DNA from: Alphaproteobacteria bacterium
GTDB lineage: Bacteria; Pseudomonadota; Alphaproteobacteria; Micavibrionales; Micavibrionaceae
Length of the DNA: 37,596 bases
Assembly (NCBI GenBank): GCA_016764775.1
Contig: JAESRE010000023.1
Span: 1-37,596, forward strand
Direction of reading: 5' to 3'
Within the stretch, counting starts at the first letter, position 1; the number at the start of each line of letters is the position of its first letter. Both the position numbers and the translations under genes were made by a program. The notes beneath the pieces are model-generated. The model worked only from the letters and a program-made list of their open reading frames with translations. It ran no database searches and had not been told where the DNA came from. This document shows positions 1-21,430 of the stretch, piece by piece.

Positions 1-578
1 TACTGATCGTGCATGATGATGCTTGGGAAAGGCAGGAACGGAAATTTATGCGCCGCGACATCCAGTGCGCTTGAGAACGGCACCTCAAGGATGAGTGCTT
101 TAGCTTCTACCTGAGTGGCGAGGTGTACTGCAGGCCCTGAGCCTAATGATTGTCCGTAAATGATAATGTCTTTGATATTGTTTTGTGTCAGCCACGCGAA
201 GTGCGCTTCCGCGTCTTTATACAATCCTTCTTCACTCGGCGTTCCCTCGTTTCCTCCGTAATAACGGTATTCTGCCAACAAAAGACCGTACCCTTCTCCC
301 GTGATTTTTCGGGCTTGCGGGATGAGGTGCCAGATGGTACCGCCATTGCCATGGAAAGCCAGAAACGTTGGTTGGCCGTCGTCGGCTTTTTTGTACCATG
401 ATTTTAAAACCAGCCCGTCTTCGGTTGTGATCTCTACCAACTGCATATCTGGGGCATCTGCTATTTCTGATGAGAATGTATGGGCTTCTGGCGGGTACAT
501 CAAATCGCGCTGCTTCCAATAGAAAAGCCCGACAATGATAATGTAGGTTATGATGCAGGCTGCGATAAACCTTTTCAT
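1..578 (-). CDS. Alpha/beta hydrolase, partial (C-terminus beyond window)
   Basis: This leftward reading frame is open from the ATG at 578 to the window edge, about 192 codons, so the C-terminal part is missing. The N-terminus is a single hydrophobic anchor (residues about 4-17). It is followed by an alpha/beta hydrolase core with the oxyanion-region motif FHGNGG and the nucleophile elbow GQSLGSG, the Ser being the expected catalytic nucleophile. The catalytic Asp and His would lie in the missing part. It resembles its upstream neighbour (578-1414) along its whole visible length and is probably a tandem duplicate. Its start codon shares one base with the neighbour's stop (TAATG), so the two are translationally coupled behind the TetR gene. 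The substrate is unknown; an ester or lipid is likely from context. The fold is certain, the specificity is not. Confidence 0.88.
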   Translation of the reverse strand, partial: MKRFIAACIITYIIIVGLFYWKQRDLMYPPEAHTFSSEIADAPDMQLVEITTEDGLVLKSWYKKADDGQPTFLAFHGNGGTIWHLIPQARKITGEGYGLLLAEYRYYGGNEGTPSEEGLYKDAEAHFAWLTQNNIKDIIIYGQSLGSGPAVHLATQVEAKALILEVPFSSALDVAAHKFPFLPFPSIIMHDQ

Positions 579-1414
579 TATTCCGCGGCCTCGGGTTTTT
601 GTTCTTTATTCAAGGCTTCGATGAACGCAACGGCGTCTTGTGGGAAGCCATGGTGGTGTAGGTCCATGTGGCCGGAGTCTGGATATTCTTTCATCTGTTT
701 CGGTTCAACCGCGAGTTCATATAAAGCACGACCGAAATGCGGACGGACGACCATGTCGCTGCCTGCGAGGCCAATAAAGACAGGGGCGTTGATGTTTTTG
801 ATTTTCAAATCGCTTCTGTATTGGTCCCACATCAGATATTCGAGGAACGGCACGACAAAGAAGTGAGACTTGGCGACGGCGAGTGCGCTGTTAAACGGAA
901 CATCGAGCAGGACAGCTTTCACGTCATATTCGGTCGCCATTTGCACGGCCACGCCCGAGCCTAAAGACTCGCCGTAGAGGATGATGTTGTCCGCAGTAAT
1001 GTTTTGATCATTGATCAACCAGTTGATGTAAGCGCGCCCATCCTTGTACACGCCTTCTTCGGTGGTCTTGCCCGGGTTGCCGCCATAGCCGCGATATTCA
1101 GCCAAAAGGGCGCCGTAACCCTGTTCCCTGAAATGCTGAACTTTCGGCGGGCGGTAGGCGATGCTTTGTCCGTTGCCGTGGAACATGACGATTACGGGTT
1201 TGGTGTCTTCTGTTGGCGGGTCGTACCAGCCTTCAAGCTCTAATCCGTCGTCTGTTGTAACTGTTATTACGTCCATGCCACCGGAAAGATAAATGTTCGG
1301 GCGTTTGCTACCGAAGGGGAAGTACATGAAGTTGCGTTGGGTCATCACGATAATGGAGACATACAGCACATAGACCAGCAGGGCGACGCCCGCCCATTTT
1401 AAAACAACCATCAT
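578..1414 (-). CDS. Membrane-anchored alpha/beta hydrolase
   Basis: A 278-residue serine hydrolase of the BEM46/ABHD13-like type. Residues about 6-25 form an N-terminal membrane anchor. The core shows FHGNGQS near residue 80 and the nucleophile elbow GESLGSG near residue 148. Later come a GSDMVV segment and a GHMDLH segment, which supply the likely catalytic Asp and His. The length is normal for the group. The gene overlaps the tetR stop by 4 bp (ATGA) and the next hydrolase by 1 bp, so tetR and the two hydrolases form one leftward operon. Two adjacent Met codons (1414 and 1411) could both start it. Its position beside a phospholipid synthesis operon suggests a lipid or carboxylic ester substrate. 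In E. coli YnbC a hydrolase is fused to the methyltransferase that here is a separate divergent gene. That link is inference. Confidence 0.9.
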   Translation of the reverse strand: MMVVLKWAGVALLVYVLYVSIIVMTQRNFMYFPFGSKRPNIYLSGGMDVITVTTDDGLELEGWYDPPTEDTKPVIVMFHGNGQSIAYRPPKVQHFREQGYGALLAEYRGYGGNPGKTTEEGVYKDGRAYINWLINDQNITADNIILYGESLGSGVAVQMATEYDVKAVLLDVPFNSALAVAKSHFFVVPFLEYLMWDQYRSDLKIKNINAPVFIGLAGSDMVVRPHFGRALYELAVEPKQMKEYPDSGHMDLHHHGFPQDAVAFIEALNKEQKPEAAE

Positions 1415-2019
1415 TTACGCAGTCCTTTCACACAGTTTTCTATCAAGGCATCCGTCATGTTTTCGCAGACATCTTCGCCATCGAGTAGCGGCAGCTTTCC
1501 CGTTTCATGCAGGAAATAAATGCCGTGGATGGAGGCCCATAAAAAACGGGCGGCGATTTGTCTTTTCGCATCCGAGCTGAACGTAAAGTGATCTTTCAGC
1601 ACATCTTCGAGTGGCTGGAAGAGCAAGGCGATTTTGCCGCGAAACCATTCGGGGATTTCTTCTTCATCTGAAATCTCATGTTTGAACATCATCAGCCAGC
1701 GCTCGCGGTTCGTGGTCGCGAAATCGCGATACTCCCTCGCCATCGCCTTCATGATCTCTTCGGGGGCTTTGTCTTTGTTCACCTCTTTGCTTTGCGCGAG
1801 GACGGGCAGCAGCTTTTCTAACGTGATGCCGTTTAAAGCAAGTGTTAGCCCGTCCATGGATTGGAATACATTGTAGAGTGTGCCGGGGGTGTAGCCGATG
1901 TCACTGGCGATTTTACGCGCCGTCAGGGCGCTAAACCCTTCTTTTTCAATGATCTTTGTTGCGGATGCGAGGATGAGGTCTTTCAACTCCTCGCGGGTGT
2001 GGTCGCTGCGTCGTGCCAT
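1411..2019 (-). CDS. TetR family transcriptional regulator
   Basis: A 202-residue TetR-type repressor. The N-terminal helix-turn-helix spans about residues 10-55, with the typical pattern ILASATKIIEKEGFSALTAR followed by a GYTPGTLYNVF recognition helix. The C-terminal two thirds is a helical ligand-binding domain with no recognisable ligand signature. A good ribosome binding site (GGAGC) lies just upstream of the ATG. The gene is divergent from the lipid cassette starting at 2151 and is followed by two hydrolases with start-stop overlap. The divergent region holds a perfect inverted repeat and two TTGAAC-n3-GTTTA sites, the best candidates for its operators. One overlaps its own likely -10/-35 region, so autorepression is probable. 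The ligand may be a fatty acid or lipid, which is inference from the controlled genes. Confidence 0.93.
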   Translation of the reverse strand: MARRSDHTREELKDLILASATKIIEKEGFSALTARKIASDIGYTPGTLYNVFQSMDGLTLALNGITLEKLLPVLAQSKEVNKDKAPEEIMKAMAREYRDFATTNRERWLMMFKHEISDEEEIPEWFRGKIALLFQPLEDVLKDHFTFSSDAKRQIAARFLWASIHGIYFLHETGKLPLLDGEDVCENMTDALIENCVKGLRK

Positions 2020-2052
2020 ATATTTGCTCCTATACCCTTAGAATACCAGGGA

Positions 2053-2136
2053 ATTATACGTCGTTCAATATTTTTATTGAACAAAGTTTATTTTTATGGA
2101 ATACTAACAATTGAACAATGTTTAATTAATGTTCAA
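2053..2136. promoter_or_regulatory. Divergent promoter region with two TetR-type operators
   Basis: A perfect inverted repeat GTTCAATA-TTTT-TATTGAAC lies at 2063-2082. Two dyads of the form TTGAAC-n3-GTTTA follow, at 2077-2090 and 2109-2127. The second is nearly perfect, AATTGAAC and GTTTAATT around AAT. Their centres (2084 and 2118) are 34 bp apart. A further GTTCAA half-site is at 2131-2136. On the minus strand a TATAAT box (plus-strand 2053-2058) sits beside the first repeat, so binding there would block tetR. On the plus strand TTGAAC at 2077 with AATACT at 2100 (17 bp spacer) could be the cassette promoter. Assignment to the adjacent TetR protein is inference. Confidence 0.68.
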
Positions 2137-2150
2137 AACAGGAGAGACTT

Positions 2151-3007
2151 ATGACTACGACAACATTTGAAACTTTATCCAAGCCTTTGCCCTTGTGGTG
2201 CCCGAAGAAAATCTATTACGGCATTACTAAAGTTTTGATGAGCACGGTCGGTCGTGCATCGGACGGTATTAATATCGGATACCGTTACGGGTTCGATTCC
2301 GGTGTGATGCTTGAATATGTGTATCAGAATAAAGCGAACGGAAAATTCGGTATCGGTAAGTTGATTGACCGTGCGTATCTGGACGCGCCTGGATGGAAAG
2401 GGATCCGCAACCGTGGTGAATTGCTGACCGATACTTTGAAATCCGTCATCGTTGAAGAGTACGCGCAAAAGCAACGTCCGTTGACGATTGTCGATCTGGC
2501 GTGTGGCGGTGGTCGTTATGTATTGAATGCGTTGGCTGATTTGCCCGCACATATCGAGACCAAAACCGTACTTCGGGATTACCGCATTGAGAATGTAAAG
2601 ACCGCAATGCGTCTGGCGGATAGCTTGCGGTTGGGCGTGAAATGCGAACAGGGTGATGCGTTCAGTGATTTCGATCTTGAGAAACTCGTGCCCTCAAACC
2701 CGACATTGTTATCGTCTCGGGTTTGCATGAAATCATCGATGATGACGATGTGATCCGTAACCATTTCCGCCAGATTTCGGCATTGCTCTCGACTGGTGGT
2801 CGTCTGGTTTTCACCATCCAGCCCGAACATCCACAGCATGAGTTTGTTGCGCGTGTATTGCCCGCACATACTGGGAAACTCTGGGTTATGCGCCTTCGTG
2901 ACTGGCACACAACTACGATCTGGAGCGAGTTTGCGGGATTTCACATTGATAAAAAACAGATGGAAGCGCAAAATATCTTCGGGGTAGTCACAGCTACTAA
3001 GACCTAG
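2151..3007 (+). pseudogene. YnbC-type SAM-dependent methyltransferase, interrupted by a frameshift
   Basis: The first 181 codons read as a class I methyltransferase with the SAM-binding motif IVDLACGGGRY near residues 112-123. At the CCC at 2691-2693 the frame is lost and a stop follows after about 20 unrelated residues. Homology continues in the -1 frame as LKPDIVIVSGLHEIIDD and runs to a stop at 3007. One extra C in the C run would restore a protein of about 285 residues. The restored protein matches the C-terminal half of E. coli YnbC-like hydrolase-methyltransferases (features such as the SGLHE segment and FTIQPEHPQHE). Here the hydrolase part is not fused. A good Shine-Dalgarno (AGGAGA) precedes the ATG. 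The next gene starts 15 bp after the stop. Either a real inactivating deletion or a sequencing error in the C run is possible. Confidence 0.82.
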
Positions 3008-3022
3008 GGGGGATTTCCAGCG

Positions 3023-3637
3023 ATGATCAGCGTTTACGACCTGAAACCGCGTTTCCAGAATTTGTTACGTCCGCTTACGGAGAGTCTGTTTAAGGCGGGC
3101 GTAACAGCTAACCATGTCACGTTATTCGCCATGGTGGCATCCGTCGGATATGGCGCTTGGATTTACGCGGCCTCTTCGGGGGTCGTCGGGGGCAGCGCAG
3201 CGTCTCTCCTGCTGCTGCCCGTTTTTCTTTTCTTCCGCATGGCGCTCAACGCAATCGACGGTATGCTCGCGCGGGAGTTCAAACAAAAATCCGATCTCGG
3301 TTTTTATCTGAATGAACTTGGTGATGTGGTCGCCGATACTGCCTTGTATCTGCCGTTCATGTTTTTACTTCCAAATCCGATGTTGGTTCTCATGGTCGTT
3401 TTGCTCGCGATATTGATCGAGTTTGCGGGTGTGCTCGCGCTTGGTGTTGGCAATGACCGTCGTTATGACGGGCCGTTCGGCAAGAGTGACCGCGCAGTAG
3501 CGTTCGGGGTTCTGGGTTACATTATGGTGTTTTTGAATTTACCAAGCATGGCCTATACGGGCATTTTCGGCGTGTTCATTGTATTGAGTATCTGGACGCT
3601 TCACCGCCGCATCAAATGGGGATTGAACAATGGATAA
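3023..3637 (+). CDS. ynbA: YnbA-like CDP-alcohol phosphatidyltransferase
   Basis: A 204-residue polytopic membrane enzyme. It is expected to transfer a phosphatidyl group from CDP-diacylglycerol to an unknown alcohol, releasing CMP. The family motif is present as DGMLAR, then eight residues, then GFYLNELGD and VVAD. Two positions that are Asp in most family members are Asn here (the N of NAIDG and the N of LNELG). From memory the same is true of E. coli YnbA, and the later GPFGKSDRA segment also matches that protein. It therefore belongs to the YnbA branch rather than to PgsA or PssA. A G-rich ribosome binding site precedes the ATG, and the 3' end overlaps ynbB by 8 bp. The acceptor alcohol cannot be deduced. 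Confidence 0.9.
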   Translation: MISVYDLKPRFQNLLRPLTESLFKAGVTANHVTLFAMVASVGYGAWIYAASSGVVGGSAASLLLLPVFLFFRMALNAIDGMLAREFKQKSDLGFYLNELGDVVADTALYLPFMFLLPNPMLVLMVVLLAILIEFAGVLALGVGNDRRYDGPFGKSDRAVAFGVLGYIMVFLNLPSMAYTGIFGVFIVLSIWTLHRRIKWGLNNG

Positions 3638-4568
3638 TATACTGACCGATCCGATATGGCTTGGCATGTTCGGCGTCTATGCCGTTTTGGGAACGGCGGC
3701 GGCGAGTATTTTGCTGCTGAAAAACCGATTAAAGGATAAGGACTTTTCCGAGCTGGTCGCGCGGACCAAGACATGGGGTTACATCATCCTCATGGCGACG
3801 GTGGTGCTCGCACTCGGCACAAAGGCGGCGATCATCGCGATCGGGTTTATCAGTTTTCTCGCTTTAAAAGAATATTTCACGCTGGTGCCGACGCGCAAAG
3901 TTGACCGGCGGGTTTTGCTTTGGGCGTATCTTTGTGTGCCGATCCAGTATTACTGGGTCTTTATCGGCTGGTACGGATTGTTCATCATCTTCATTCCCGT
4001 TTATGCGCTGCTCTTTATTGCTTTCCGTTTGATTTTAGCAGGGGAAACGAGCGGCTATATCAAATCCGTCGGCACGATGCACTGGGGGTTGATGCTGACC
4101 GTATTCAACCTCTCGCACCTTGCATTTTTGCTCGTGATGCCGACGACGGTCGAGTTGCCAGCTGGTGGTGCGGGGTTATTGTTTTACGTTCTCTTCCTGA
4201 CGCAGTTTAATGATGTGGCGCAATATTTCTGGGGCAAGTTGTTCGGCAAACATCAGGTCACGGAGATTAGTCCCGGTAAAAGTTGGGAAGGCTTAATCGG
4301 TGGTATTTGCACGACGACCGTTCTGGCCATCATTCTGGCGCCGTTTTACACGCCCTTCACCTGGCCGTACGCGATGGCGGCGGGCGCATTGATTGCCTCG
4401 GTCGGGTTTATCGGGGATGTCACAATCTCGGCAGTAAAACGAGATCTGGGCACAAAAGACAGCGGTTCATTATTGCCCGGTCATGGCGGAGTGTTGGACA
4501 GGCTGGATAGTCTGACATTGGCCGCGCCGTTATTCCTGCACTTCACACGTTATTTCTTCGGGGGGTAA
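3630..4568 (+). CDS. ynbB: YnbB-like phosphatidate cytidylyltransferase
   Basis: A 312-residue integral membrane protein with about eight hydrophobic segments. It would make CDP-diacylglycerol from CTP and phosphatidic acid at the inner membrane. The full family signature is near the C-terminus: SAVKRDLGTKDSGSLLPG followed by HGGVLDRLD, including the metal-binding Lys-Asp and His-Gly-Gly-x-x-Asp-Arg residues. Upstream, ISFLALKEY and SPGKSWEGL also match E. coli YnbB. It begins within the last 8 bp of ynbA and ends 3 bp before the acyltransferase. The three enzymes form a substrate chain: acyltransferase product, then CDP-lipid, then phosphatidyl transfer. It is a second, specialised CdsA rather than the housekeeping enzyme, judged by context and similarity. 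Confidence 0.93.
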   Translation: MDNILTDPIWLGMFGVYAVLGTAAASILLLKNRLKDKDFSELVARTKTWGYIILMATVVLALGTKAAIIAIGFISFLALKEYFTLVPTRKVDRRVLLWAYLCVPIQYYWVFIGWYGLFIIFIPVYALLFIAFRLILAGETSGYIKSVGTMHWGLMLTVFNLSHLAFLLVMPTTVELPAGGAGLLFYVLFLTQFNDVAQYFWGKLFGKHQVTEISPGKSWEGLIGGICTTTVLAIILAPFYTPFTWPYAMAAGALIASVGFIGDVTISAVKRDLGTKDSGSLLPGHGGVLDRLDSLTLAAPLFLHFTRYFFGG

Positions 4569-4571
4569 TGC

Positions 4572-5240
4572 ATGCTCGGACGGGCGCTACAAATTTTGTT
4601 TTTCTGTTTGATCGTTAAGCCTGTGCTGCTGATTATTTTAGGTGTGCGGGTAAAGGGGCATGAGAACTTGCCCGAGGATGGACCTGCTATCCTCATTGCC
4701 AACCATAACAGCCATCTCGATACTTTGGTGCTAATGAATATGTATTCGTTACGTAACTTGCGAAAGCTTCGCCCTGTTGCGGCTGCGGATTATTTCATGA
4801 AGACGCCTTTGCGGGCGTGGCTGTCGACGAACGTCATCAACATCATCCCGATTGCACGCAAAGGCAAACGTACGAGTGATCCGTTAGAGCCGATTTATGA
4901 TGCGCTGGATAATGACCAGATCGTGATTTTTTATCCTGAAGGGAGCCGCGGGGAGCCCGAAAAGATTGCAGATTTCAAACGCGGGATTTCGATTTTGGCC
5001 GAAAAATATCCCGACGTATCTGTCGCGCCTATCCTGACATTCGGTTTGGGGAAAGCCTTGCCGAAAGGTGATCCTGTGATCGTACCGTTCTTTGTTGATG
5101 TGATCGTCGACAAGCCCTGCAAGTTCAAGGATTGCAAGACGGATGATTTTTCAGAATTTCTGGAGCAGAAATTAAAGACGCTTAAGAACGGGCAATATTT
5201 CGCGGATTATATCGAGGAAAACCCGCTGGTGGATGCTTAG
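4572..5240 (+). CDS. plsC: 1-acyl-glycerol-3-phosphate acyltransferase family protein
   Basis: A 222-residue PlsC-type acyltransferase. The catalytic HX4D motif is NHNSHLD (residues about 44-50), and the substrate-binding EGxR motif is EGSRGEPE (about residues 117-124). An N-terminal hydrophobic helix (residues 1-25) would hold it at the membrane. The expected reaction is acylation of lysophosphatidic acid at sn-2 to give phosphatidic acid, the substrate of the upstream ynbB product. The gene starts 3 bp after ynbB ends and closes the cassette. An acyltransferase in this position is an addition to the E. coli ynbABC arrangement. A different lysolipid or glycerol acceptor cannot be excluded. 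No clear terminator separates it from the convergent protease gene 12 bp downstream. Confidence 0.92.
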   Translation: MLGRALQILFFCLIVKPVLLIILGVRVKGHENLPEDGPAILIANHNSHLDTLVLMNMYSLRNLRKLRPVAAADYFMKTPLRAWLSTNVINIIPIARKGKRTSDPLEPIYDALDNDQIVIFYPEGSRGEPEKIADFKRGISILAEKYPDVSVAPILTFGLGKALPKGDPVIVPFFVDVIVDKPCKFKDCKTDDFSEFLEQKLKTLKNGQYFADYIEENPLVDA

Positions 5241-5252
5241 GGGCAGTTCGCT

Positions 5253-6425
5253 CTATGGGCAATTTACTTCGGCGACCAGATCGCTGCGGATATAGCCGTC
5301 ACGCCCGTCTTCGGTTTCCATGACTTCCAGCCATACATTCGGGTCGCCGATTTCCGCGCGTTCCCAGTCCAACGTATCGCGAACCCGCACAACGCTGCTT
5401 TGGGGCATTGCATCACCGACTGTGTCGCTGCCAATATCGGCGTGCATGCGCAAATTTCCGCCGTCAGGCTCCATGATCATGACACATTGATCGACTTTGT
5501 TTAGGAATGGTACATCGGCAAGTTGATGATGGTAAAACGGTGCATAATAACTGCGGAAATTATCGGCCGTTACGTCGATTTCGCCGTCCTTGACTGTGCC
5601 CCCCGCCAATACGGCCAGACTTTCAAGCTCACCAAAGAGATTTCGAACAAGCAGACTGCCGCCGCTGGCGCCGTAATTGATTTTACACGTTGTGGTCACT
5701 AAGCCACCATTTAGTGGTTGGCTTGCTTCACATTCTTCATCAATGCTTTTTCCGTCGGGTAAGTCCCGGGAAAAGCCTGCCGCGCTGGCGTGTAATGCTC
5801 CCAAAGCCGCAATGTTGTAATCTGCCATGTGATGAGCAAATACGCGCTGTTTAATCGGGGTGATTGCGGCAGGCGGGCGTCTATGCGGAAAAAAGATGAT
5901 GGCATTATCATCCGGCTGTAGTTTTTTCTTATCACCTAAATCAGGATCATATCCGGGGTTGGTCCATACCAGAGCCGGATTGTCCGCACTGCTTTCCAGA
6001 AGAAACTCCGTTTCTTCACCGTTAGCCGTTGCGTATGTCGTGGAAAAATTGAACTTTTCAGGGTCTTTTCCAAATGTGCAGTGTGCGGCTGTGGTTAGCA
6101 AGGTGCCCGGCACATCTGTGAAATATCCGGGAATATCTACAATTTGGGCTGTGCATCTCTTGCTTTCGTACATGAGTTTACCAATAGCGGCGATCTCGTA
6201 GTCCTCTGCGGTTGCCATGCGGCGGCCAAAGCTCTGCTCTACGGCGTCTTCAATGGCGTCCTTCATCTGTTGGGATTGTTCGGCGTCTACTTGTGAGGTC
6301 TCTTCGGAAAGCGGGGTAGAGCTTGCCATGAATAGTCCCAGCAAGACATCCTTGCCGATGATGGCTGCAACACCTGCGCCACCTGCAGCCAGAATTCCGT
6401 ATTTATGAGTGCGTGTTAAACCCAT
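5253..6425 (-). CDS. Trypsin-like serine protease with C-terminal SH3-like domain
   Basis: A 390-residue exported or membrane-tethered protein. Residues about 9-34 form a hydrophobic, Gly/Ala-rich export segment. The trypsin-fold core has the catalytic His in TTAAHC (His115), a probable Asp in PDDNAIIFF (Asp172 or Asp173) and the nucleophile Ser254 in GASGGS, where Ala stands in place of the Asp of the usual GDSGG. Cysteines near 91 and 116, and near 232 and 247, could form disulfides in the periplasm. Residues about 312-390 look like a bacterial SH3 domain, with NLRMHADIG near its start and WLEVM and GYIRSDLV near its end, suggesting cell-wall or peptide binding. It is divergent from an ECF sigma factor gene. 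The substrate is unknown, and no propeptide boundary can be placed. Confidence 0.8.
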   Translation of the reverse strand: MGLTRTHKYGILAAGGAGVAAIIGKDVLLGLFMASSTPLSEETSQVDAEQSQQMKDAIEDAVEQSFGRRMATAEDYEIAAIGKLMYESKRCTAQIVDIPGYFTDVPGTLLTTAAHCTFGKDPEKFNFSTTYATANGEETEFLLESSADNPALVWTNPGYDPDLGDKKKLQPDDNAIIFFPHRRPPAAITPIKQRVFAHHMADYNIAALGALHASAAGFSRDLPDGKSIDEECEASQPLNGGLVTTTCKINYGASGGSLLVRNLFGELESLAVLAGGTVKDGEIDVTADNFRSYYAPFYHHQLADVPFLNKVDQCVMIMEPDGGNLRMHADIGSDTVGDAMPQSSVVRVRDTLDWERAEIGDPNVWLEVMETEDGRDGYIRSDLVAEVNCP

Positions 6426-13804: not shown

Positions 13805-15262
13805 ATGACGTATCTGCCTTTGTTTTTAAAAGCCGATGATGACCACCCCGTTCTTGTTGTCGGAGGAGGTGAAATTGCCTGTGCCAAGACCGAAGCTTTG
13901 GCATCTGTCGGCGTACGTGTCGATGTTGTGGCGAAGGAATTGGGCGAAGCCATTATCGACATGTGTGACGATCATGGTTTTTCCTATGAGCAGGGCGAAT
14001 ACGAATTGAGAAGAATTGAGGGGCGCCGGATTGTGATCGCGGCGACCGATGATGATGCGTTAAATGAACGAATAGCACATGATTGTCGTGCCCATGGAAT
14101 CCTCGTCAACGTCGTCGATAACCCCCCTTTATGTGACTTCATTTTTCCGGCGCTTGTTCGTCGCGGTCCGCTGCAAGTTGCGGTCTCGACTTCGGGTATT
14201 GCACCGACGCTCGCGCGCATGATTAAGCAGACTCTGGAGACGATTGTTCCGGCTGAGTTCGAACGGCTGATCGATTTCATGGAGGCTCAAAAAAGTAAAT
14301 TAAGAAAAGGTCTTAGCCAAATTCAGCCAAGACGGTTATTCAGTGAAGATGTCATTCGCGGACCCATTGCCGAGGAGGTTTTGGAAGGAAACGTACAGCG
14401 GGCTGAGGAACTGTTTGATGAAGCCTTGGCGCGCTATCCCGACCGTCATTCACCGGCCCTTTATCTGGTCGGAACGGGACCCGGGAATGCCGATCTGGTG
14501 ACCTTGAAAGCGATCCGTTTATTGGGGCAGGCCGATGTCATTTTGTATGACCGTTTAGCCGCCCCCGAATTGATTACACAATATGGCCGCAAGGATGCGG
14601 AAAAGATTTTCGTCGGCAAGACACGTTGCCATCATCATAAGAAGCAAGAAGAGATCGACGAGATTATCGAGCGTCATTTACGTGACGGTCATATTGTTGT
14701 GCGTCTGAAAGGGGGAGACCCCGGAATTTACGGACATGCGGCGGAAGAAATCGCAATTGCGAAGAAGGTGGGTGTACCTTATCAAATCGTACCGGGGATC
14801 AGTGCGGCGCATGGTTGCGCAGCCTATGCCGGTTTGCCGTTGACCGAGCGGGATAAGGCTCTGAGTGTGCGTTTCCTGACGCTTTATAAGGACCAGTTGC
14901 ATGATGAGACCTTCTGGGAAGGTATGCAATATGCGACCAATGAGACTTTGGTGTTCTATATGAGCAGCCATAATTACGGTACATTATGCGAGAAGCTGAT
15001 CGAAAACGGTTTTGATGCCGATACGCGTTTCCTTGTTATTGAGCAGGGGACCACCCCTTATCAAAAAGAATTTCCGGGCACGCTTGCACGTTTTGAGGAG
15101 GATTACGCCGATAAAAAGTTTGCCTCCCCGTGCTTGATGATCGTGGGTGAAGTCACCCGTTATTACGAAGAATTCAAGTGGAAGCAGCCCCCGATCGAAG
15201 ACGGTAATTTCTTTGAAGATTTGCCGCCCCTTCCTGAAAAAGACGAGAAGGAGGCCGCGTAA
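13805..15262 (+). CDS. cysG: CysG: bifunctional siroheme synthase
   Basis: A 485-residue fusion that makes siroheme, the prosthetic group of sulfite reductase, from uroporphyrinogen III. Residues about 1-150 are the NAD-dependent precorrin-2 dehydrogenase/ferrochelatase part, with the dinucleotide motif VLVVGGGEIACAK and the NVVDN segment. A linker runs to about residue 218. The C-terminal half is the SAM-dependent uroporphyrinogen methyltransferase: LVGTGPGNADLVT, LKGGDPGIYG, VPGISAAHG and a LPLTERD segment. E. coli CysG is about 457 residues, and the extra length is mainly the acidic C-terminus. Its stop shares one base with the cysH start. It is first in a six-gene operon, which fits siroheme supply for CysI. 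Only a weak ribosome binding site is seen. Confidence 0.95.
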   Translation: MTYLPLFLKADDDHPVLVVGGGEIACAKTEALASVGVRVDVVAKELGEAIIDMCDDHGFSYEQGEYELRRIEGRRIVIAATDDDALNERIAHDCRAHGILVNVVDNPPLCDFIFPALVRRGPLQVAVSTSGIAPTLARMIKQTLETIVPAEFERLIDFMEAQKSKLRKGLSQIQPRRLFSEDVIRGPIAEEVLEGNVQRAEELFDEALARYPDRHSPALYLVGTGPGNADLVTLKAIRLLGQADVILYDRLAAPELITQYGRKDAEKIFVGKTRCHHHKKQEEIDEIIERHLRDGHIVVRLKGGDPGIYGHAAEEIAIAKKVGVPYQIVPGISAAHGCAAYAGLPLTERDKALSVRFLTLYKDQLHDETFWEGMQYATNETLVFYMSSHNYGTLCEKLIENGFDADTRFLVIEQGTTPYQKEFPGTLARFEEDYADKKFASPCLMIVGEVTRYYEEFKWKQPPIEDGNFFEDLPPLPEKDEKEAA

Positions 15263-16005
15263 TGGATAAAAAAGAGCTTACAGCCAAGCTGGTCGAAGAA
15301 CTCGGTGCGCTTGATCACTGGGAAGACCGTATCGAGAAGCTGAAAGACTACAGCGACTATTCAATCGCGTTTTCGACGAGTTATTCGCTCGAGGATCAGG
15401 CGATTTTGCATGCAATTGCACAATATGACGTGCCTGTACGTGTGTTCACTCTGGATACGGGGCGTTTATTCGAGCAGACCCATAAAGTTGCGCAAGAATC
15501 CCGCGAAACTTACCCCAATGTCGCGATCGAAACCTTCTATCCCGATGCGCAAAAGACGCAGGAACTGGTCGCCAAGCAAGGGATAAACGGTTTCTTTGAA
15601 TCAGTCGAAAACCGTAAGGCGTGCTGCTTTGTGCGCAAAGTCGAGCCGTTGGGCCGTGCCCTGGAAGGGGTTGATATCTGGATATCAGGCTTGCGTGCGG
15701 CACATTCCGAAAACCGCAGTGATATGCATGTAGCCGAGCTGGATGCAGGGCGTGATATTGCAAAAGTCTCGCCGTTAATCGACGTGAATATCGATGCATT
15801 GAGATCATATATTGACGAATACGACATTCCGTACAATTCTCTGCACGATATCGGTTACCCATCAATCGGTTGTGCACCGTGCACGCGTCCGATCAAGCCG
15901 GGCGAGCATCCGCGTGCGGGCCGCTGGTGGTGGGAAGAGGATAATAAGCAAGAATGCGGTCTGCATCTTGTTGACGGAAAATTGGTTAGAGCTTCGAACA
16001 TATAG
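15262..16005 (+). CDS. cysH: CysH: assimilatory APS/PAPS reductase with iron-sulfur motif
   Basis: A 247-residue thioredoxin-dependent reductase that releases sulfite from activated sulfate. The nucleotide-binding part has FSTSYSLEDQ and LDTGRLF. The catalytic Cys232 is in QECGLH. Four further cysteines form the pattern Cys121-Cys122 and Cys204-x2-Cys207 (KACCFVRK and GCAPC). These cysteines bind a [4Fe-4S] cluster in reductases that prefer adenylylsulfate (APS) over PAPS. No APS kinase gene, or CysC domain on CysN, occurs in the operon, which agrees with direct APS use. The start overlaps the cysG stop by 1 bp, and cysJ begins 9 bp downstream. The protein family is certain, and the APS preference is well supported by the cysteines. 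Confidence 0.95.
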   Translation: MDKKELTAKLVEELGALDHWEDRIEKLKDYSDYSIAFSTSYSLEDQAILHAIAQYDVPVRVFTLDTGRLFEQTHKVAQESRETYPNVAIETFYPDAQKTQELVAKQGINGFFESVENRKACCFVRKVEPLGRALEGVDIWISGLRAAHSENRSDMHVAELDAGRDIAKVSPLIDVNIDALRSYIDEYDIPYNSLHDIGYPSIGCAPCTRPIKPGEHPRAGRWWWEEDNKQECGLHLVDGKLVRASNI

Positions 16006-16014
16006 AGGGAATGA

Positions 16015-17511
16015 ATGCTTAATCCTGAACAGCAGAAACTTTTGCAGGAACTGGAGGCACGGCTAAACCGTGACCAGTTGTTATGGGTGTCGGGCTATTT
16101 ACAAGGCAAAGCCGGTGGTGAAATGGCAGCCGGTATGGGCGCAGCCCCCGCAGCCGATAAGCCGAAGGTGAATATCTATTACGCGACCGAGACGGGCAAT
16201 TCCAAAGGCTTATCCTTGCAGGTTATGAAGGGTCTGAAAGGTGCAGGCTTCAAGGCGAAGAACAATGCGGTGAACCGTTTGAAGGTCGAAGATATACCCA
16301 AAGATGAATTCGCGGTCTTCCTGATTTCTACACACGGTGAGGGCGACCCGCCGGAGACAGCCATCAAGTTTTTTGATGCGATTAAAGCCGCCGATGATAA
16401 TGCGTTGGAGGGGTTGCAATTTGCCATGCTCGGGCTTGGTGATAAGACATACGAGATATTCTGCGGGGCGGCTACGCAATTACAGGAGCAGTTGGAGCGC
16501 CTCGGTGGTAAAGCGTTTCAGGAGATTGCTTTGTTCGATGTCGATTACGCATCACACACGCCGAAATGGATTGATGAGACTGTCGCCGAGTTGAACAAAA
16601 TCGTTGGTGATACGGCGCCAGCCGCTGCTGCCCCGATGGGCTTTGATATGACACCGACGGTGGAGGTTCGCACGGGCAAAGGTTATACGCGCCTCGAACC
16701 TGTCAAAGGTGTTGTAAGGGACATCGTGAATTTGAATGACCACGATTCCAAGAAACAGACCTATCACATCGAAATCGAATATGAAGACGACATCATTTAT
16801 TCCTGCGGGGATGCGGCGGGCATTATTTTGCCGCGCGGTGATGAAGTAGAAGAACGCGAATTGACGCCGCGTCTGTATTCTATCGCGTCTTCCCCGTCTT
16901 ATCACGAAGGGGAAATCCACCTGACGGTTGCGTTGGCGACCTATACGGAAGAGGACGGCAGTATCGGCTACGGGATCGCATCAAAATATCTCGCCGAATT
17001 GAAAGAAGGCGACGAGATCGAGTTCTACATCTCGCAAAACCAGATATTCAATCTGCCTGCTAATGATCAGGATGCGATTATGATCGGCCCCGGTACGGGC
17101 ATCGCGCCGTTCCGTTCATTTGTGTATGAACGCAGCGAATTGGGCCATGACGGCCGGAACTGGGTGATATTCGGTGATCAGCATGCGCATTGTGATTTCC
17201 TGTATCAGACCGAATGGCAGGAGCATCTCGCAACAGAAACCATTCATAAGCTCGACCTCGCATTCTCCCGCGATCAGGACGAGAAAGTCTATGTTCAACA
17301 CCGCCTGCAACAGAATGCCGAAGAATTGATGGCATGGGTCGATGGCGGGGCCGCGATTTATGTGTGCGGTAACAAAGACCCGATGAGCAAGGATGTCGAT
17401 AAAGCCCTCATCGACATTTTCACGCATCAGAAATCATTGTCTCCCGAAGATGCCGAGGATTTCCTCGCCGATCTCGAAGAGCAGGGCCGATACGTAAAGG
17501 ACGTTTACTAA
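16015..17511 (+). CDS. cysJ: CysJ: compact sulfite reductase flavoprotein
   Basis: A 498-residue flavoprotein that would carry electrons from NADPH through FAD and FMN to CysI. Residues 51-195 are a flavodoxin domain (YATETGNSKG, STHGEGDPP, LGLGDKTYE). Residues about 220-345 bind FAD (TPRLYSIASS at 285-293). Residues about 350-498 bind NADPH (IGPGTGIAPFR at 357-367) and end in DVY like E. coli CysJ. Compared with that protein (599 residues), about 95 residues are missing exactly between GDAAGI and LTPRLYS, where the helical connecting domain should be. The reading frame is intact and the flanks align well, so this is a compact architecture rather than a broken gene. Its stop overlaps cysI by 1 bp. 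Confidence 0.9.
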   Translation: MLNPEQQKLLQELEARLNRDQLLWVSGYLQGKAGGEMAAGMGAAPAADKPKVNIYYATETGNSKGLSLQVMKGLKGAGFKAKNNAVNRLKVEDIPKDEFAVFLISTHGEGDPPETAIKFFDAIKAADDNALEGLQFAMLGLGDKTYEIFCGAATQLQEQLERLGGKAFQEIALFDVDYASHTPKWIDETVAELNKIVGDTAPAAAAPMGFDMTPTVEVRTGKGYTRLEPVKGVVRDIVNLNDHDSKKQTYHIEIEYEDDIIYSCGDAAGIILPRGDEVEERELTPRLYSIASSPSYHEGEIHLTVALATYTEEDGSIGYGIASKYLAELKEGDEIEFYISQNQIFNLPANDQDAIMIGPGTGIAPFRSFVYERSELGHDGRNWVIFGDQHAHCDFLYQTEWQEHLATETIHKLDLAFSRDQDEKVYVQHRLQQNAEELMAWVDGGAAIYVCGNKDPMSKDVDKALIDIFTHQKSLSPEDAEDFLADLEEQGRYVKDVY

Positions 17512-19268
17512 TGAGCAACGATAATCCAAAACCCGAAGACATTAACGACCCCGCCAAACTCTCTGCTAACGAGAAGATGAAGACGGACAGCCGCGGTTTG
17601 CGTGGTGATTTGTCCGATGAAATGGCGGACTCCCTGACCGGTGCTATCCCCGAAGTCGGGCAGCAATTGATTAAATTCCACGGTGCGTACATGCAGGACA
17701 ACCGTGACCGCCGTGAAGAGCGCGAGCGTAAGAAGCTGGAATGGGCGTATTCATACATGATCCGCCTGCGTATTCCGGGTGGTGATTTAACGGCTGACCA
17801 ATGGGTCGCGTTGCAGGATTGCTGTAACGAGAACGCGAGCGGCGATGTGAAAATTACAACGCGCCAGACGATCCAGTTTCACGGTGTTGTGAAGGCGCGC
17901 ATGAAGCCGACGATGAAGGATTTCGATGCGTTGGGGCTGGATGCAATTGCCGCATGTGGTGATGTGAATAGAAACGTGATGGCGGGGGCTTACCCTGACC
18001 TTGCGCCGTATCACGCCGAAGTTTTTGATTATGCGCGCAAGATTAGTGAGCATTTGCTGCCGCGTACAGGCGCGTTCAAGGAAGTCTGGCTGGATGGCGA
18101 GAAGCTGGAGCAGGACAAACCGCCCGAGGATGACCCGCTCTATAAGGACATTTATCTGCCGCGTAAGTTCAAGATCGCGATTGCGATTCCGCCGCATAAT
18201 GAAAACGATGTGTTCTCCAACGATATCGGTTTGATTGCGATTGGTGAAGGCGACGAATTCCAAGGCTTTAACGTCTCTATTGGCGGTGGTTTCGGAACAA
18301 CGCATGGTAACCTGCAAACATATCCGCGCCGTGGCACGATTATCGGTTTTGTACCGAAAGACCAGGCTCTGGATTGCGTGTGGCAGATCGCCGCCGTTCA
18401 GCGTGACTACGGGAACCGCGAGGCCCGTAACCAAGCGCGTTTGAAGTACACGGTTGATCGCTTGGGCGTTGATTTCTTCAAAGGTGAAGTCGAGAAACGT
18501 TGCGGATTCAAGCTTGAAGAGGCGCGTCCATACAAGTTCACCTATCGCGGCGACCCGTATGGTTGGTATGAAGATCATCACGGTGAGTGGTTTTACGGCA
18601 TTTTTGTTGAGAATGGCCGCGTGATTGACGGCAAGACCGCGTTCGGCGCCGAGTACAACATCAAATCCGCACTCTATGAAGTTGCCAAGACGGGTAAGTG
18701 CGGTGTGCGGTTTACGGGTAACCAGAACGTGATGCTGACCCATGTGGCCGAGAAAGATAAAAAGGCGCTGGAAGACATCCTGAAAAAGCACGGCGTGGAT
18801 GTGGAAGCGGCGTCGAAAGCGCGTAAAGAAGCGATTGCCTGTGTGGCGTTGCCTACTTGTCCGCTGGCGTTGGCTGAAGCTCAACGTTATTTGCCGGACC
18901 TGATTTCCAAGATTGAAGACGTGCAGGACAAGCACGGATTAAAAGACGAAGCGATGACGATCCGTATGACGGGTTGCCCGAACGGATGCGGTCGTCCCTA
19001 CATGGCGGAGATCGGGTTTGTCGGTAAGGCGGCGGGTAAATACGCCCTGCGTCTTGGCGGTGACTATGAAGGTGAGCGCCTGAACCAGGTATACAAGGAA
19101 GAGGTCGATGAGGCTGAAGCTTTGGAAACTTTGGATGAATTGTTTGGCGAGTTTGTGAAGAACCGTGACGGCGAAGAGCGTTTCGGTGATTACATCCATC
19201 GCACGCATTTCAAAGGCAAAGAGTTTGACGGTAAAGCGATTGCGGCTCAAGCGGTCGCGGCAGAGTAG
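17511..19268 (+). CDS. cysI: CysI: sulfite reductase hemoprotein
   Basis: A 585-residue siroheme and [4Fe-4S] protein that reduces sulfite to sulfide with six electrons. The cluster and siroheme cysteines are in place: Cys444 and Cys450 (CVALPTC) and Cys489 and Cys493 (GCPNGCG). The substrate-binding arginine and lysine regions (ITTRQTIQFHG, VNRNVM, RLKYTVD) are conserved, and the length is close to E. coli CysI (570). The gene starts on the last base of the cysJ stop and is followed by cysD after 15 bp. Siroheme comes from cysG at the head of the operon. A ferredoxin-dependent homologue is less likely because the flavoprotein gene is directly upstream. Confidence 0.96.
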   Translation: MSNDNPKPEDINDPAKLSANEKMKTDSRGLRGDLSDEMADSLTGAIPEVGQQLIKFHGAYMQDNRDRREERERKKLEWAYSYMIRLRIPGGDLTADQWVALQDCCNENASGDVKITTRQTIQFHGVVKARMKPTMKDFDALGLDAIAACGDVNRNVMAGAYPDLAPYHAEVFDYARKISEHLLPRTGAFKEVWLDGEKLEQDKPPEDDPLYKDIYLPRKFKIAIAIPPHNENDVFSNDIGLIAIGEGDEFQGFNVSIGGGFGTTHGNLQTYPRRGTIIGFVPKDQALDCVWQIAAVQRDYGNREARNQARLKYTVDRLGVDFFKGEVEKRCGFKLEEARPYKFTYRGDPYGWYEDHHGEWFYGIFVENGRVIDGKTAFGAEYNIKSALYEVAKTGKCGVRFTGNQNVMLTHVAEKDKKALEDILKKHGVDVEAASKARKEAIACVALPTCPLALAEAQRYLPDLISKIEDVQDKHGLKDEAMTIRMTGCPNGCGRPYMAEIGFVGKAAGKYALRLGGDYEGERLNQVYKEEVDEAEALETLDELFGEFVKNRDGEERFGDYIHRTHFKGKEFDGKAIAAQAVAAE

Positions 19269-19283
19269 AGGAAGGACGTAACA

Positions 19284-20189
19284 ATGACATTACCCAATTA
19301 TTTGCAGGAGCTGGAGGATGAGGCGATTTTCATCATCCGTGAAGCGATCTCAGTCGCGGATAATCCTGTCATGCTGTATTCGATCGGCAAGGATTCAAGT
19401 GTCCTGCTGCATCTGACGCTGAAAGCGTTTGCGCCCGCGAAATGTCCTGTGCCGCTGCTTCATGTTGATACGACATGGAAGTTTCAGGAGATGATCAAGT
19501 TCCGCGATGAAACGGCGAAGAAGCATGATCTGAAGCTGCATGTGCATATTAATCAGGACGGTGTGGATATGGGTATCGGTCCGTTCGAGCACGGTAGTCG
19601 CCAGCATACGCAGATTATGAAGACCGATGCGCTGAAACAGGCGCTGGATAAGCATAAGTTCGATTTCATTCTGATCGGCGCACGCCGCGATGAAGAAAAA
19701 TCCCGCGCCAAGGAACGTGTGTTCTCGACACGGAATAAATTCCACGCATGGGACCCGAAAAACCAACAGCCTGAATTCGGTTGGTTGTACAACACACGCC
19801 TGCAACAGGGGCACAGCTCCCGCGTGTCGCCGATCTCCAATTGGACGGAGCAGGATGTCTGGGAATACATCATGCATGAGAATATCGATCTCGTGCCTCT
19901 GTACTTCGCCAAGGAACGCCCTGTGGTCGAGCAGGAAGACGGTATGTTGATTATGGTTGATGATGACCGTATGCCGATTGATGAGGATACCGAAGTTAAG
20001 AACATGAAAATCCGTTTCCGTACGCTGGGGTGTTACCCGTTGACGGGGGCGATTGAATCCGAGGCGGAAACGCTGGAGGAAATCGTTGAAGAGCTGCGCC
20101 TGAGCAAGCATTCGGAACGTCAGGGCCGCTTGATTGATAAGGATTCATCGGCATCCATGGAACAAAAGAAAAAGATGGGATATTTCTAA
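19284..20189 (+). CDS. cysD: CysD: sulfate adenylyltransferase subunit 2
   Basis: A 301-residue ATP-pyrophosphatase-type subunit that forms APS from sulfate and ATP. The PP-loop is [12 protein letters not shown] (residues about 33-44). [30 protein letters not shown] and [10 protein letters not shown] are all typical of CysD, and the length equals that of E. coli CysD (302). Its partner CysN follows after 2 bp, giving a tightly coupled heterodimer. It is the fifth gene of the cys operon. A ribosome binding site (GAGGAAGGA) precedes the ATG. Nothing unusual is seen. Confidence 0.97.
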
Positions 20190-20191
20190 AA

Positions 20192-21430
20192 ATGGCTAAC
20201 GATAAAGATTTGAAAACCATTCAGTTTCTGACCTGTGGTCACGTGGATGACGGGAAGTCGACCTTGATCGGTCGCCTGTTGCACGACATCGGTGTTGTGC
20301 CTGATGACCAGATTGATGCCGCCAAGGATGATGAGGGGAATATTGATTATTCCCTGTTCACGGATGGTCTGGAAGATGAGCGCCGCCAAGGAATTACGAT
20401 TGATGTGGCCTACCGTTATTTCCGCCATGACGGGTGCCGTTACCGTATCGCCGACACACCGGGTCACCTTGAATATATGCGTAATATGGCGGTGGCAGCC
20501 GTTTCATCGGATATTGCCGTGATCCTCGTTGACGGTATTCACGGTGTGCGTTTGCAAACCGTGCAATACAGCAAGATCGCGCGTTTCTTTGGTGTGAAGC
20601 AGTTCTTGGTTGCCATTAACAAGATGGATGCCGTGCAGTATTCACAGGACCGCTTTCACGAAATCCAGAAAGCGTATCTGGATGAATTCGAAAATGACGA
20701 TTCCGATTGTGTTGTGAATTTTGTCCCTGTCAGTGCGATTGAAGGCGACAACGTGGCCGAGAAAAGCAGCAATATGAGCTGGTATATCGGTCCGACCGTT
20801 CTTGAATATCTGCAAAAGGCGGATCGTCACACGCACACCAATGAAAGCATTCGCTTGCCGATCCAACACATGATGAAGGATGAAGAGGGCAAACGCTGGT
20901 ATATGGGGACGCTGCATGGCGGGTCTTTAAAGATCGGTGACAAGATCGTTTCCGTTGATAGCGGACAGACAGCGACCATTGATGGGCTGGTTTACAGCGG
21001 TGAACATGTCGAGATCGTCAATCGCCGTCAGGCCGTGGCCGTACGTGTGGCCGAAGATATCGATATTACCCGTGGGTCCGTTCTGGCGCCCGCCGAAAAG
21101 GAGCACGAAGTGGGTGAGGCGTTTTATGCCGATATTTTATGGCTCGATAAAAAGTATCAGGACAAGGATACGTTCAGCGGCACAGTCAAAATCCACCATC
21201 AGGAAACGCAGACACAAGTCACCATCAAGGATGACGAAACAGCCAACGATAACGGCCCGCTGAAAAGTGGCTTTGTCAATCTGGCCAAGCCGATTGCGAT
21301 GGATGTGTTTGAGAGCAACCCGCATACGGGCCTGTTTATCCTGATCGATCCGTATACGGAGCTGGCTGTTGGTGTTGGTACGGTTAACCGTGTTATTCCG
21401 ATGCAATTTGCGGGCAGCAGTTCTATCTAA
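20192..21430 (+). CDS. cysN: CysN: sulfate adenylyltransferase GTPase subunit
   Basis: A 412-residue translation-factor-like GTPase that drives APS formation by CysD. The P-loop is GHVDDGKST (residues 16-24), followed by the switch region QGITIDVAYRYF, DTPGH and NKMD. Beta-barrel domains 2 and 3 follow. The protein ends without a fused CysC (APS kinase) domain, so the product of the pair is APS, which the iron-sulfur CysH can reduce directly. E. coli CysN is about 475 residues, and this version is shorter in the C-terminal part. It is the last gene of the operon. No standard U-tract terminator follows; the hairpin before trkH lies 30 bp downstream. Confidence 0.95.
   Translation: MANDKDLKTIQFLTCGHVDDGKSTLIGRLLHDIGVVPDDQIDAAKDDEGNIDYSLFTDGLEDERRQGITIDVAYRYFRHDGCRYRIADTPGHLEYMRNMAVAAVSSDIAVILVDGIHGVRLQTVQYSKIARFFGVKQFLVAINKMDAVQYSQDRFHEIQKAYLDEFENDDSDCVVNFVPVSAIEGDNVAEKSSNMSWYIGPTVLEYLQKADRHTHTNESIRLPIQHMMKDEEGKRWYMGTLHGGSLKIGDKIVSVDSGQTATIDGLVYSGEHVEIVNRRQAVAVRVAEDIDITRGSVLAPAEKEHEVGEAFYADILWLDKKYQDKDTFSGTVKIHHQETQTQVTIKDDETANDNGPLKSGFVNLAKPIAMDVFESNPHTGLFILIDPYTELAVGVGTVNRVIPMQFAGSSSI

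Follow-up and report, generated by a model that had tools for sequence, protein, structure and literature searches.

The closest described counterparts of the locus analysed here are two gene clusters of Gammaproteobacteria. In Pseudomonas aeruginosa, the genes PA2541 to PA2536 (arc1A–F) are Gac/Rsm-induced and required against attack by the type VI secretion system (T6SS), and the part of the report available describes five of the six genes as phospholipid-related (Ting et al., 2022, PMC8926400). The same eLife authors identified a further factor, Arc3A, via the DUF2339 family (PMC8926400). While arc1 protects P. aeruginosa against T6SS attack, the chemistry of this protection is obscure, and the related ynb genes of Escherichia coli have hitherto been without a firm role. 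Here, we describe an operon at positions 2151–5240 of a 37,596-nucleotide contig stretch from an alphaproteobacterium of the Micavibrionaceae (JAESRE010000023.1; the whole stretch is referred to as the window), which is probably a compact, TetR-repressed relative of the ynb/arc1 clusters and belongs, we propose, to a larger regulon for the repair of membrane lipids.

The literature on these genes is scattered. In the accessible text of a 2025 study, arc1A, arc3A, and aas add to the resistance of P. aeruginosa to lipase effectors (PMC12663445). An initial annotation of the window, made from its sequence, held that the family has no firm physiological role, a view that no longer stands for the Pseudomonas form, which is needed against T6SS attack (PMC8926400) and adds to resistance to lipase effectors (PMC12663445), as far as the available parts of these papers go. 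Excerpts of other studies report that a PA2537 transposon mutant has lower survival in mouse airways (PMC2246019) and place PA2541 among the listed CsrA/RsmA targets (PMC4066749). Overproduction of E. coli YnbB increased the glycolipid MPIase, and the passage seen adds, as data not shown, that YnbB did not replace CdsA (PMC6362211). A role of YnbB in ECA-PG synthesis was considered and rejected, because ynbB, though a transposon match, was dispensable for it in the portion of the source consulted (PMC8609368).

The window operon carries on its forward strand the Pfam families Methyltransf_20, CDP-OH_P_transf, CTP_transf_1, and Acyltransferase in that order (Table 1), so that the gene list first proposed (a methyltransferase followed by YnbA-, YnbB-, and PlsC-type genes) is borne out. 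Its description as a tight rightward operon behind a TetR gene holds in part: the three intact genes are tightly packed, with an 8-base overlap between ynbA and ynbB and a 3-base gap between ynbB and plsC, but tetR is divergent and lies outside the rightward operon. Likewise, the methyltransferase family is as predicted, but the gene is not a single open reading frame, being frameshifted near position 2688. In what follows, G000 denotes the window's own genome, G006 a genome of the same genus, other G-numbers further genomes searched, and L-numbers fetched loci. All four operon genes are retained in G006 at 92–97% identity, and they therefore form a conserved unit and no chance array. The YnbB-type CDP-diacylglycerol synthase (CDS) shows, by eye in its translation, the signature S-A-V-K-R...K-D...P-G-H-G-G-V-L-D-R-L-D, the C-terminal CDS signature being, we presume, PROSITE PS01315, and its gene is distinct from a CdsA-like gene at G000:C30. 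The window PlsC is 31% identical to the plsC product of an arc1-order cluster in Rhizobium sp. WL3. As had been suggested, the order of the predicted enzymes is consistent with a route from lysophosphatidate to phosphatidate, to CDP-diacylglycerol, and on to a phosphatidyl product. Promoter and terminator scans over positions 1950–5400 returned only chance-level matches, and none of five proteins matched the PADLOC models of anti-phage defence at E 0.001.

Table 1. Predicted features at the left end of the window, with operator copies and supporting matches.
Feature	Position	Strand	Remarks
Alpha/beta hydrolase no. 2	1..578	-	Open reading frame from the edge; C-terminal part lost at contig end
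Alpha/beta hydrolase, intact	578..1414	-	Hydrolase_4, E 7.1e-13; GESLG nucleophile elbow by eye
TetR-family regulator, divergent from operon	1411..2019	-	Pfam TetR_N (E 4.1e-10) and TetR_C_33
Putative operator copy 1, TTATACGTCGTTCAA	2054..2068		2 mismatches; partial palindrome TTGAAC-N3-GTTCAA
Putative operator copy 2, TTGAACAAAGTTTAT	2077..2091		2 mismatches; matching copies in G006, G014, G029
Putative operator copy 3, TTGAACAATGTTTAA	2111..2125		1 mismatch; partial palindrome TTGAAC-N3-GTTCAA
Methyltransferase, YnbC C-terminal type, frameshifted	2151..3007	+	PF12147 (Methyltransf_20); N part E 1.4e-45, C part E 1.9e-15
YnbA/Arc1A-type CDP-alcohol phosphotransferase	3023..3637	+	PF01066, E 1.5e-7; variant motif N-D-N-D (N76, D79, N97, D101)
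YnbB-type CDP-diacylglycerol synthase	3630..4568	+	PF01148, E 2.4e-63
PlsC-type acyltransferase	4572..5240	+	PF01553, E 4.9e-22; HNSHLD and PEGSR motifs by eye

The primary evidence for regulation comes from the intergene between tetR and the operon (positions 2020–2150), which contains three partial palindromes of the form TTGAAC-N3-GTTCAA. These repeated sites at a divergent promoter support the inducibility that the initial annotation had predicted, and the TetR protein would be expected to bind them. G006, G014, and G029 keep the arrangement, with spacings of 23 and 33–34 bases, despite drift of the surrounding bases. All 12 of the best tetR loci have at least one site with 0–1 mismatch within 250 bp upstream, compared with 0.001 sites expected per 250 bp in letter-shuffled loci (20 shuffles of each of 11 loci). 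With three further tetR orthologues, two of which (G050, G010) have a site, the palindrome in the divergent intergene is conserved along with the predicted regulator at 14 of 15 loci. Four of these 15 (the window, G006, G014, and G029) had served to define the motif, and the independent score is 10/11. The same operator stands before other genes of lipid repair. In G000, a perfect copy lies about 60 bp upstream of lplT-aas (contig C53:847–861), and copies with 0–1 mismatch precede lplT-aas in G006 (about 60 bp), a lipase-lplT-aas run in G029, and a DUF2339 gene in G006. Counted over whole genomes, sites within 1 mismatch exceed the reversed pattern only moderately in some genomes (10 vs 2 in G006 and 10 vs 0 in G029, among others) and hardly or not at all in others, and the operator argument therefore depends on where the sites lie and not on how many there are. 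A scan at 3 mismatches is uninformative over whole sources, and only sites at 0–2 mismatches were used; those of G052 and G055 were counted genome-wide with their positions left out.

LplT-Aas brings in lysophospholipids and re-acylates them, and its gene recurs beside the operon and its regulator. TetR orthologues, defined as matches above 110 bits, were found in 17 of the 57 genomes searched (own included, as in all counts over this set), and 13 of them adjoin arc1-like, DUF2339, or lplT-aas genes. YnbB-type genes are present in 10 of the 57, seven of which encode a full-length LplT-Aas; in five of these seven (G006, G014, G024, G002, and G029) it lies no more than 5 kb from ynbB, in differing arrangements. 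The most complete run, seen on one strand in both G024 and G002, consists of DUF2339 (PF10101), lipase, lplT-aas, ynbA, ynbB, plsC, and the gene of a VTT-domain-like protein; at its head, a perfect operator separates it from the divergent tetR. In G014 the lipase and lplT-aas genes follow plsC in the same direction. In G000 itself, the first 260 residues of LplT-Aas, 93% identical to those of G006, are encoded at the edge of another contig. The hydrolase cut off at the start of the window has a complete copy in G006, where lplT-aas comes next, tail to tail, and judging from these matches G000 likely has a similar neighbourhood. The lplT-aas gene shares the operator with the window operon in G000, G006, and G029; unlike the route predicted for the operon, LplT-Aas makes no CDP-diacylglycerol. 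The Arc3A family heads the same gene run in two relatives and is preceded by an operator in G006, G024, G002, and G003, although no protein of the window region matched PF10101. We place the operon in a probable repair regulon because it shares its operator with lplT-aas and arc3A-family genes and, in relatives, lies close to them.

Several observations concern the surroundings of these runs. The VTT-domain-like (DedA-like) membrane protein after plsC is found at L015 (10221–10781) and L016 (7149–7700) and, by eye, at L014 and L019; its Pfam match falls just below the cut-off (33.5 vs 33.9 bits), and it may act in this pathway as a lipid scramblase. At L270 (G015, 3131–4997), two unidentified membrane-type proteins of 423 and 192 amino acids lie between the divergent tetR and lplT-aas, at the place that DUF2339 occupies in other relatives. 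In G011, a perfect operator also lies between an LplT-like gene and the neighbouring gene of a second TetR, which is more distant (31%; C21:127455–129338).

Comparison with E. coli K-12 ynbABCD, which the initial annotation had proposed and which proves to be the right one, shows that YnbA, YnbB, and the C-terminal methyltransferase of YnbC are homologous to the window genes at 40–50%: identity is 50% over 165 amino acids between the window CDP-alcohol phosphotransferase (CDP-AP) and YnbA, 43% between the CDS and YnbB, and 40% between the methyltransferase and a portion of YnbC's C-terminal half. The E. coli cluster differs in its fused YnbC and in YnbD, and has no plsC or tetR annotated in it. 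The acyltransferase had been regarded as an addition at this locus; it is indeed absent from the K-12 cluster, but it is not peculiar to the window: 77 of 80 Pseudomonas loci have plsC, as does every one of the seven plasmid loci fetched, and an E. coli plasmid cluster (L030), unlike K-12 ynbABCD, carries it as well. The further proposal that the hydrolase part of YnbC appears here as separate genes across the divergent promoter did not survive comparison. The two divergent hydrolases, 42% identical to one another, share only the alpha/beta-hydrolase superfamily with the hydrolase half of YnbC (BLASTP E 0.067 to E. coli and 1e-4 to P. aeruginosa PA7), and their origin as a split-off YnbC hydrolase was rejected.

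In P. aeruginosa PA7 (L101), the gene order is CDP-AP, hydrolase-methyltransferase, PAP2/DSP phosphatase, small protein, PlsC, and CDS. The deletion primers for PA2541 (Ting et al.) match the start and end of the PA7 CDP-AP gene with no mismatch, and the start of the PA2536 primer (ATGAACGAA) is consistent with the N terminus MNE of the PA7 CDS; because the primers map onto these two genes, arc1A–F (PA2541–PA2536) is a cluster of this type. A primer search of 25 genomes of the genus of G295 gave no match. The window YnbA is 59% identical to PA7 Arc1A over 170 columns, and both loci encode an Arc1A-type CDP-AP, a YnbB-type CDS, a PlsC-type acyltransferase, and a PF12147-type methyltransferase domain. 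The P. aeruginosa genes are inducible, as is predicted for the window operon, but through Gac/Rsm where the window has a TetR, and it is the window-type operon that is linked to lplT-aas in relatives. The window methyltransferase is separate from any hydrolase and frameshifted; the fused hydrolase-methyltransferase of the YnbC/Arc1B type is not found in the window operon, which has the methyltransferase domain only. None of the eight proteins encoded at 578–6425 matched a PAP2/DSPc phosphatase of the YnbD/Arc1C type, and no PAP2/DSP phosphatase is annotated beside the genes in the plasmid relatives L029–L031 either. A PAP2-like protein recognized by eye 30 kb away (window 35209–36624) is of another type than YnbD/Arc1C. 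By gene content, then, the window operon has the combination of YnbA/Arc1A-type CDP-AP and YnbB-type CDS that marks an arc1/ynb cluster and is a compact relative or variant of it, not a complete arc1, because it has neither the fused hydrolase nor the phosphatase nor the small protein.

Clusters of this type are patchily distributed. In 77 of the 80 Pseudomonas loci, CDP-AP, hydrolase-methyltransferase, phosphatase, PlsC, and CDS genes stand in that order (72 exactly, 5 with an extra match); the three exceptions are L103 and L120, for which the stretch fetched was short, and L140, which has no CDP-AP, PlsC, or CDS match. A full-length hydrolase-methyltransferase (matches above 690 bits) is encoded in 26 of 398 Pseudomonadota genomes, and weaker matches, mostly to the hydrolase half only, occur in 110 more. 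A YnbB-type CDS lies close by in 18 of the 20 hydrolase-methyltransferase regions fetched, the exceptions being L066 and L083. PF12147 is sparse in the window's own class, with 6 of 190 genomes above the cut-off, G000 included. Similar clusters are found on plasmids of Pseudanabaena, E. coli (conjugative), and Bacteroides, on a Vibrio campbellii replicon, and in Rhizobium and Shinella; the cyanobacterial Pseudanabaena plasmid has CDP-AP, CDS, PlsC, and a methyltransferase without the fused hydrolase, and a plasmid of Rhizobium sp. Kim5 has PlsC and CDS only. The occurrence of arc1/ynb-type clusters on plasmids of very different bacteria (L029, L031, L032, L035, and L030, the last on the conjugative IncK2/Z plasmid NZ_CP027341.1 of E. 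coli) indicates that the system can move. A YnbB query matches 232 plasmid records, 185 of them over at least 80% of its length, some of which may be ordinary CdsA.

The CDP-AP differs from well-studied members of its superfamily at its predicted metal site. An AlphaFold2 model of the window YnbA (mean predicted local distance difference test score, 83) has as its best match, and nearest solved fold, the phosphatidylinositol phosphate synthases (PDB 5D91/5D92 and 6H53/6H59), with Z 19.1 and a root-mean-square deviation of 3.0 over 188 residues for 5D91. In PgsA1 of Mycobacterium tuberculosis, two metal ions are bound by the four aspartates of the motif, of which the fourth presumably also acts as the base, according to the section of the structural report available (PMC6506517). 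The window YnbA departs from the canonical D-xx-D-G-xx-A-R-x8-G-xxx-D-xxx-D: where these synthases have Asp at motif positions 1 and 3, it has Asn. The window protein and each of 16 diverse members in an alignment share these Asn residues, with Asp at positions 2 and 4. Among 116 CDP-AP reading frames, the pattern was called as N-D-N-D in 106, in the wrong register in 4, and not at all in 6; the printed strings of those 4 and of 5 of the 6 failures also have Asn at both positions, as does the true frame, recovered via L011, of the sixth (L020, a wrong frame). One family search over 13 genomes served as the canonical control: of its 31 matches, 30 were fetched, comprising 19 canonical CDP-APs with all four Asp, 9 YnbA-type proteins with N-D-N-D, and 2 without a pattern match. 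On these alignments, N-D-N-D is a trait of the subfamily and not a quirk of a single gene. Two canonical metal-binding aspartates are thus absent from YnbA, and the standard CDP-AP reaction is therefore not assumed; N76 and N97 may explain what YnbA does differently. Compensation by Glu85 and Asp105 was rejected, because M. tuberculosis PgsA1 (6H53) has both equivalents, a Glu after the AR position and an Asp four residues after the fourth Asp, in addition to all four aspartates. A second YnbA-like branch (L017, L018, L019, L020/L011, L031, and L033), whose alignment with the window YnbA gives 17–23% identity, is found with the same YnbB-PlsC genes and retains Asn-Asp-Asn-Asp even though the AR of the motif is changed.

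From this arrangement, we infer a TetR ligand, a set of enzyme reactions, a product, and a use against phospholipase damage in this bacterium. Upon phospholipid damage, TetR, perhaps binding an acyl or lysolipid signal, would leave the TTGAAC-N3-GTTCAA sites. LplT-Aas would then import and re-acylate lysophospholipids, while, in parallel, PlsC would convert lysophosphatidate to phosphatidate, YnbB would make CDP-diacylglycerol, and YnbA/Arc1A would transfer the phosphatidyl moiety to an acceptor that, judging from the closest structural relatives of the enzyme, may be a phosphorylated alcohol. These three enzymes would thereby supply phospholipid or remodel it, and the methyltransferase, where intact, would modify the YnbA product. 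The operators and their use before the operon, lplT-aas, and an arc3A-family gene are new here, and a regulon defined by them would be independent comparative evidence that arc1/ynb, LplT-Aas, and the Arc3A family address the same problem. Literature searches, which covered few subscription papers and no bioRxiv preprints, found no description of a TetR regulon joining these systems or of the Asn variant. More tentatively, and with considerable doubt, a dedicated TetR may sense lipid damage and command, as one regulon, the arc1-like operon together with lplT-aas and an arc3A-family protein, the N-D-N-D YnbA/Arc1A proteins forming a distinct CDP-AP class with a rebuilt metal site that makes a possibly lipase-resistant phospholipid. 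If this were true, one regulon would join the same three defences that in P. aeruginosa are spread over separate loci under Gac/Rsm control. The regulator and its predicted binding site can be assayed in vitro, and the question of the Arc1A/YnbA product becomes directly testable.

A number of results weigh against a repair regulon. The available text on arc1 states that its mutant was rescued by no single attacker effector mutation and that arc1 to arc3 are additive, acting as independent units (PMC8926400), and arc1A and aas appear auxiliary to arc3A in P. aeruginosa in the part of the later study seen (PMC12663445). The operon is without the PAP2/DSP phosphatase and the small membrane protein of arc1, its methyltransferase is broken as sequenced, and a genome search of G000 gave no DUF2339 match. 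Operator counts within 1 mismatch are in moderate excess over the reversed pattern in G000 (8 vs 4) and G014 (7 vs 4), and hardly or not above it in G002 (7 vs 6) and G050 (4 vs 4), and at 3 mismatches the window shows no enrichment (24 sites vs 19.4 expected). The tetR orthologue of G038 has no site within 1 mismatch, nor do the fetched operon stretches of four of the ten YnbB genomes (G049, G011, G012, and G025). Four of the 17 tetR orthologues lie away from identified repair genes, two in biotin operons (G010, G011) and two beside unidentified genes, and in G000 a perfect site (C58:7621–7635, L218) precedes a small secreted-looking open reading frame and bioF-, bioD-, and bioA-like genes (by eye). 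This last site suggests a link between the TetR regulator and fatty-acid supply, and TetR may respond more broadly, as a switch for fatty acids or biotin. In its full form, such a homeostasis switch would raise phospholipid synthesis capacity, with arc1-like, aas, and bio genes as ordinary targets, and the tetR orthologues within the biotin operons (bio genes by eye) would fit it. The similarity of TetR to FabR, FasR, and FadR models also points that way, but it is weak, and equally weak to the efflux regulators MtrR and AcrR. With 13 of the 17 orthologues beside arc1-like, DUF2339, or lplT-aas genes, and with PgsA-like and CdsA-like genes at other loci of G000, we consider this explanation decidedly unlikely.

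Alternatively, the operon could have nothing to do with repair and be a stand-alone inducible pathway to a phospholipid that is new or made conditionally, in which YnbA sets the head group and the methyltransferase modifies it. The enzyme order is complete, the YnbB signature and PlsC motifs are intact, the YnbA subfamily is clearly distinct from canonical CDP-APs, and no aas is annotated in the 14 kb around E. coli K-12 ynbABCD. Set against these points are the operators and physical linkage shared with lplT-aas and DUF2339 and the arc1 phenotypes against lipases in the text available (PMC12663445), which make an independent pathway rather unlikely, although it overlaps with the repair explanation in that a special lipid could be the means of repair. 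The state of the methyltransferase raises the question of whether the operon is instead decaying, the frameshift at about 2688 being a loss of function in this strain; the patchy presence of YnbB-type genes (10 of 57 genomes) would agree with this. The gene is read in two frames, 2151–2753 and a second ending at 3007, and is one base short near 2688 compared with G006, in which a single frame is open across the same sequence; programmed frameshifting was rejected on that account. Codons past the break still differ from G006 mostly silently (24 silent and 5 changed, compared with 49 and 8 before it), from which the frameshift is judged either to have arisen very recently or to be an error of the assembly; with 128 contigs, the assembly could plausibly contain a one-base error. 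Moreover, ynbA, ynbB, and plsC are intact, and L014–L016 are without the methyltransferase in the fetched stretch yet retain the rest, so that decay is very improbable.

Other genes of the window were noted in passing. A 390-amino-acid protein convergent with the operon (5253–6425) has no Pfam match at E 0.01 and resembles by eye a trypsin-type protease (GASGGSL); a 58% identical protein adjoins the operon in G006. A separate LplT-like transporter of the major facilitator superfamily (27678–28979), with no operator within 3 mismatches nearby, is 44% identical to the LplT part of lplT-aas (351 bits) and lies 2.2 kb from a cyclopropane fatty acid synthase-like gene (24175–25485, by eye). Positions 13805–21430 hold a sulfate-assimilation-like cluster, recognized by eye from translations, with genes for siroheme synthase, 3′-phosphoadenosine 5′-phosphosulfate (PAPS) reductase, sulfite reductase, and sulfate adenylyltransferase.

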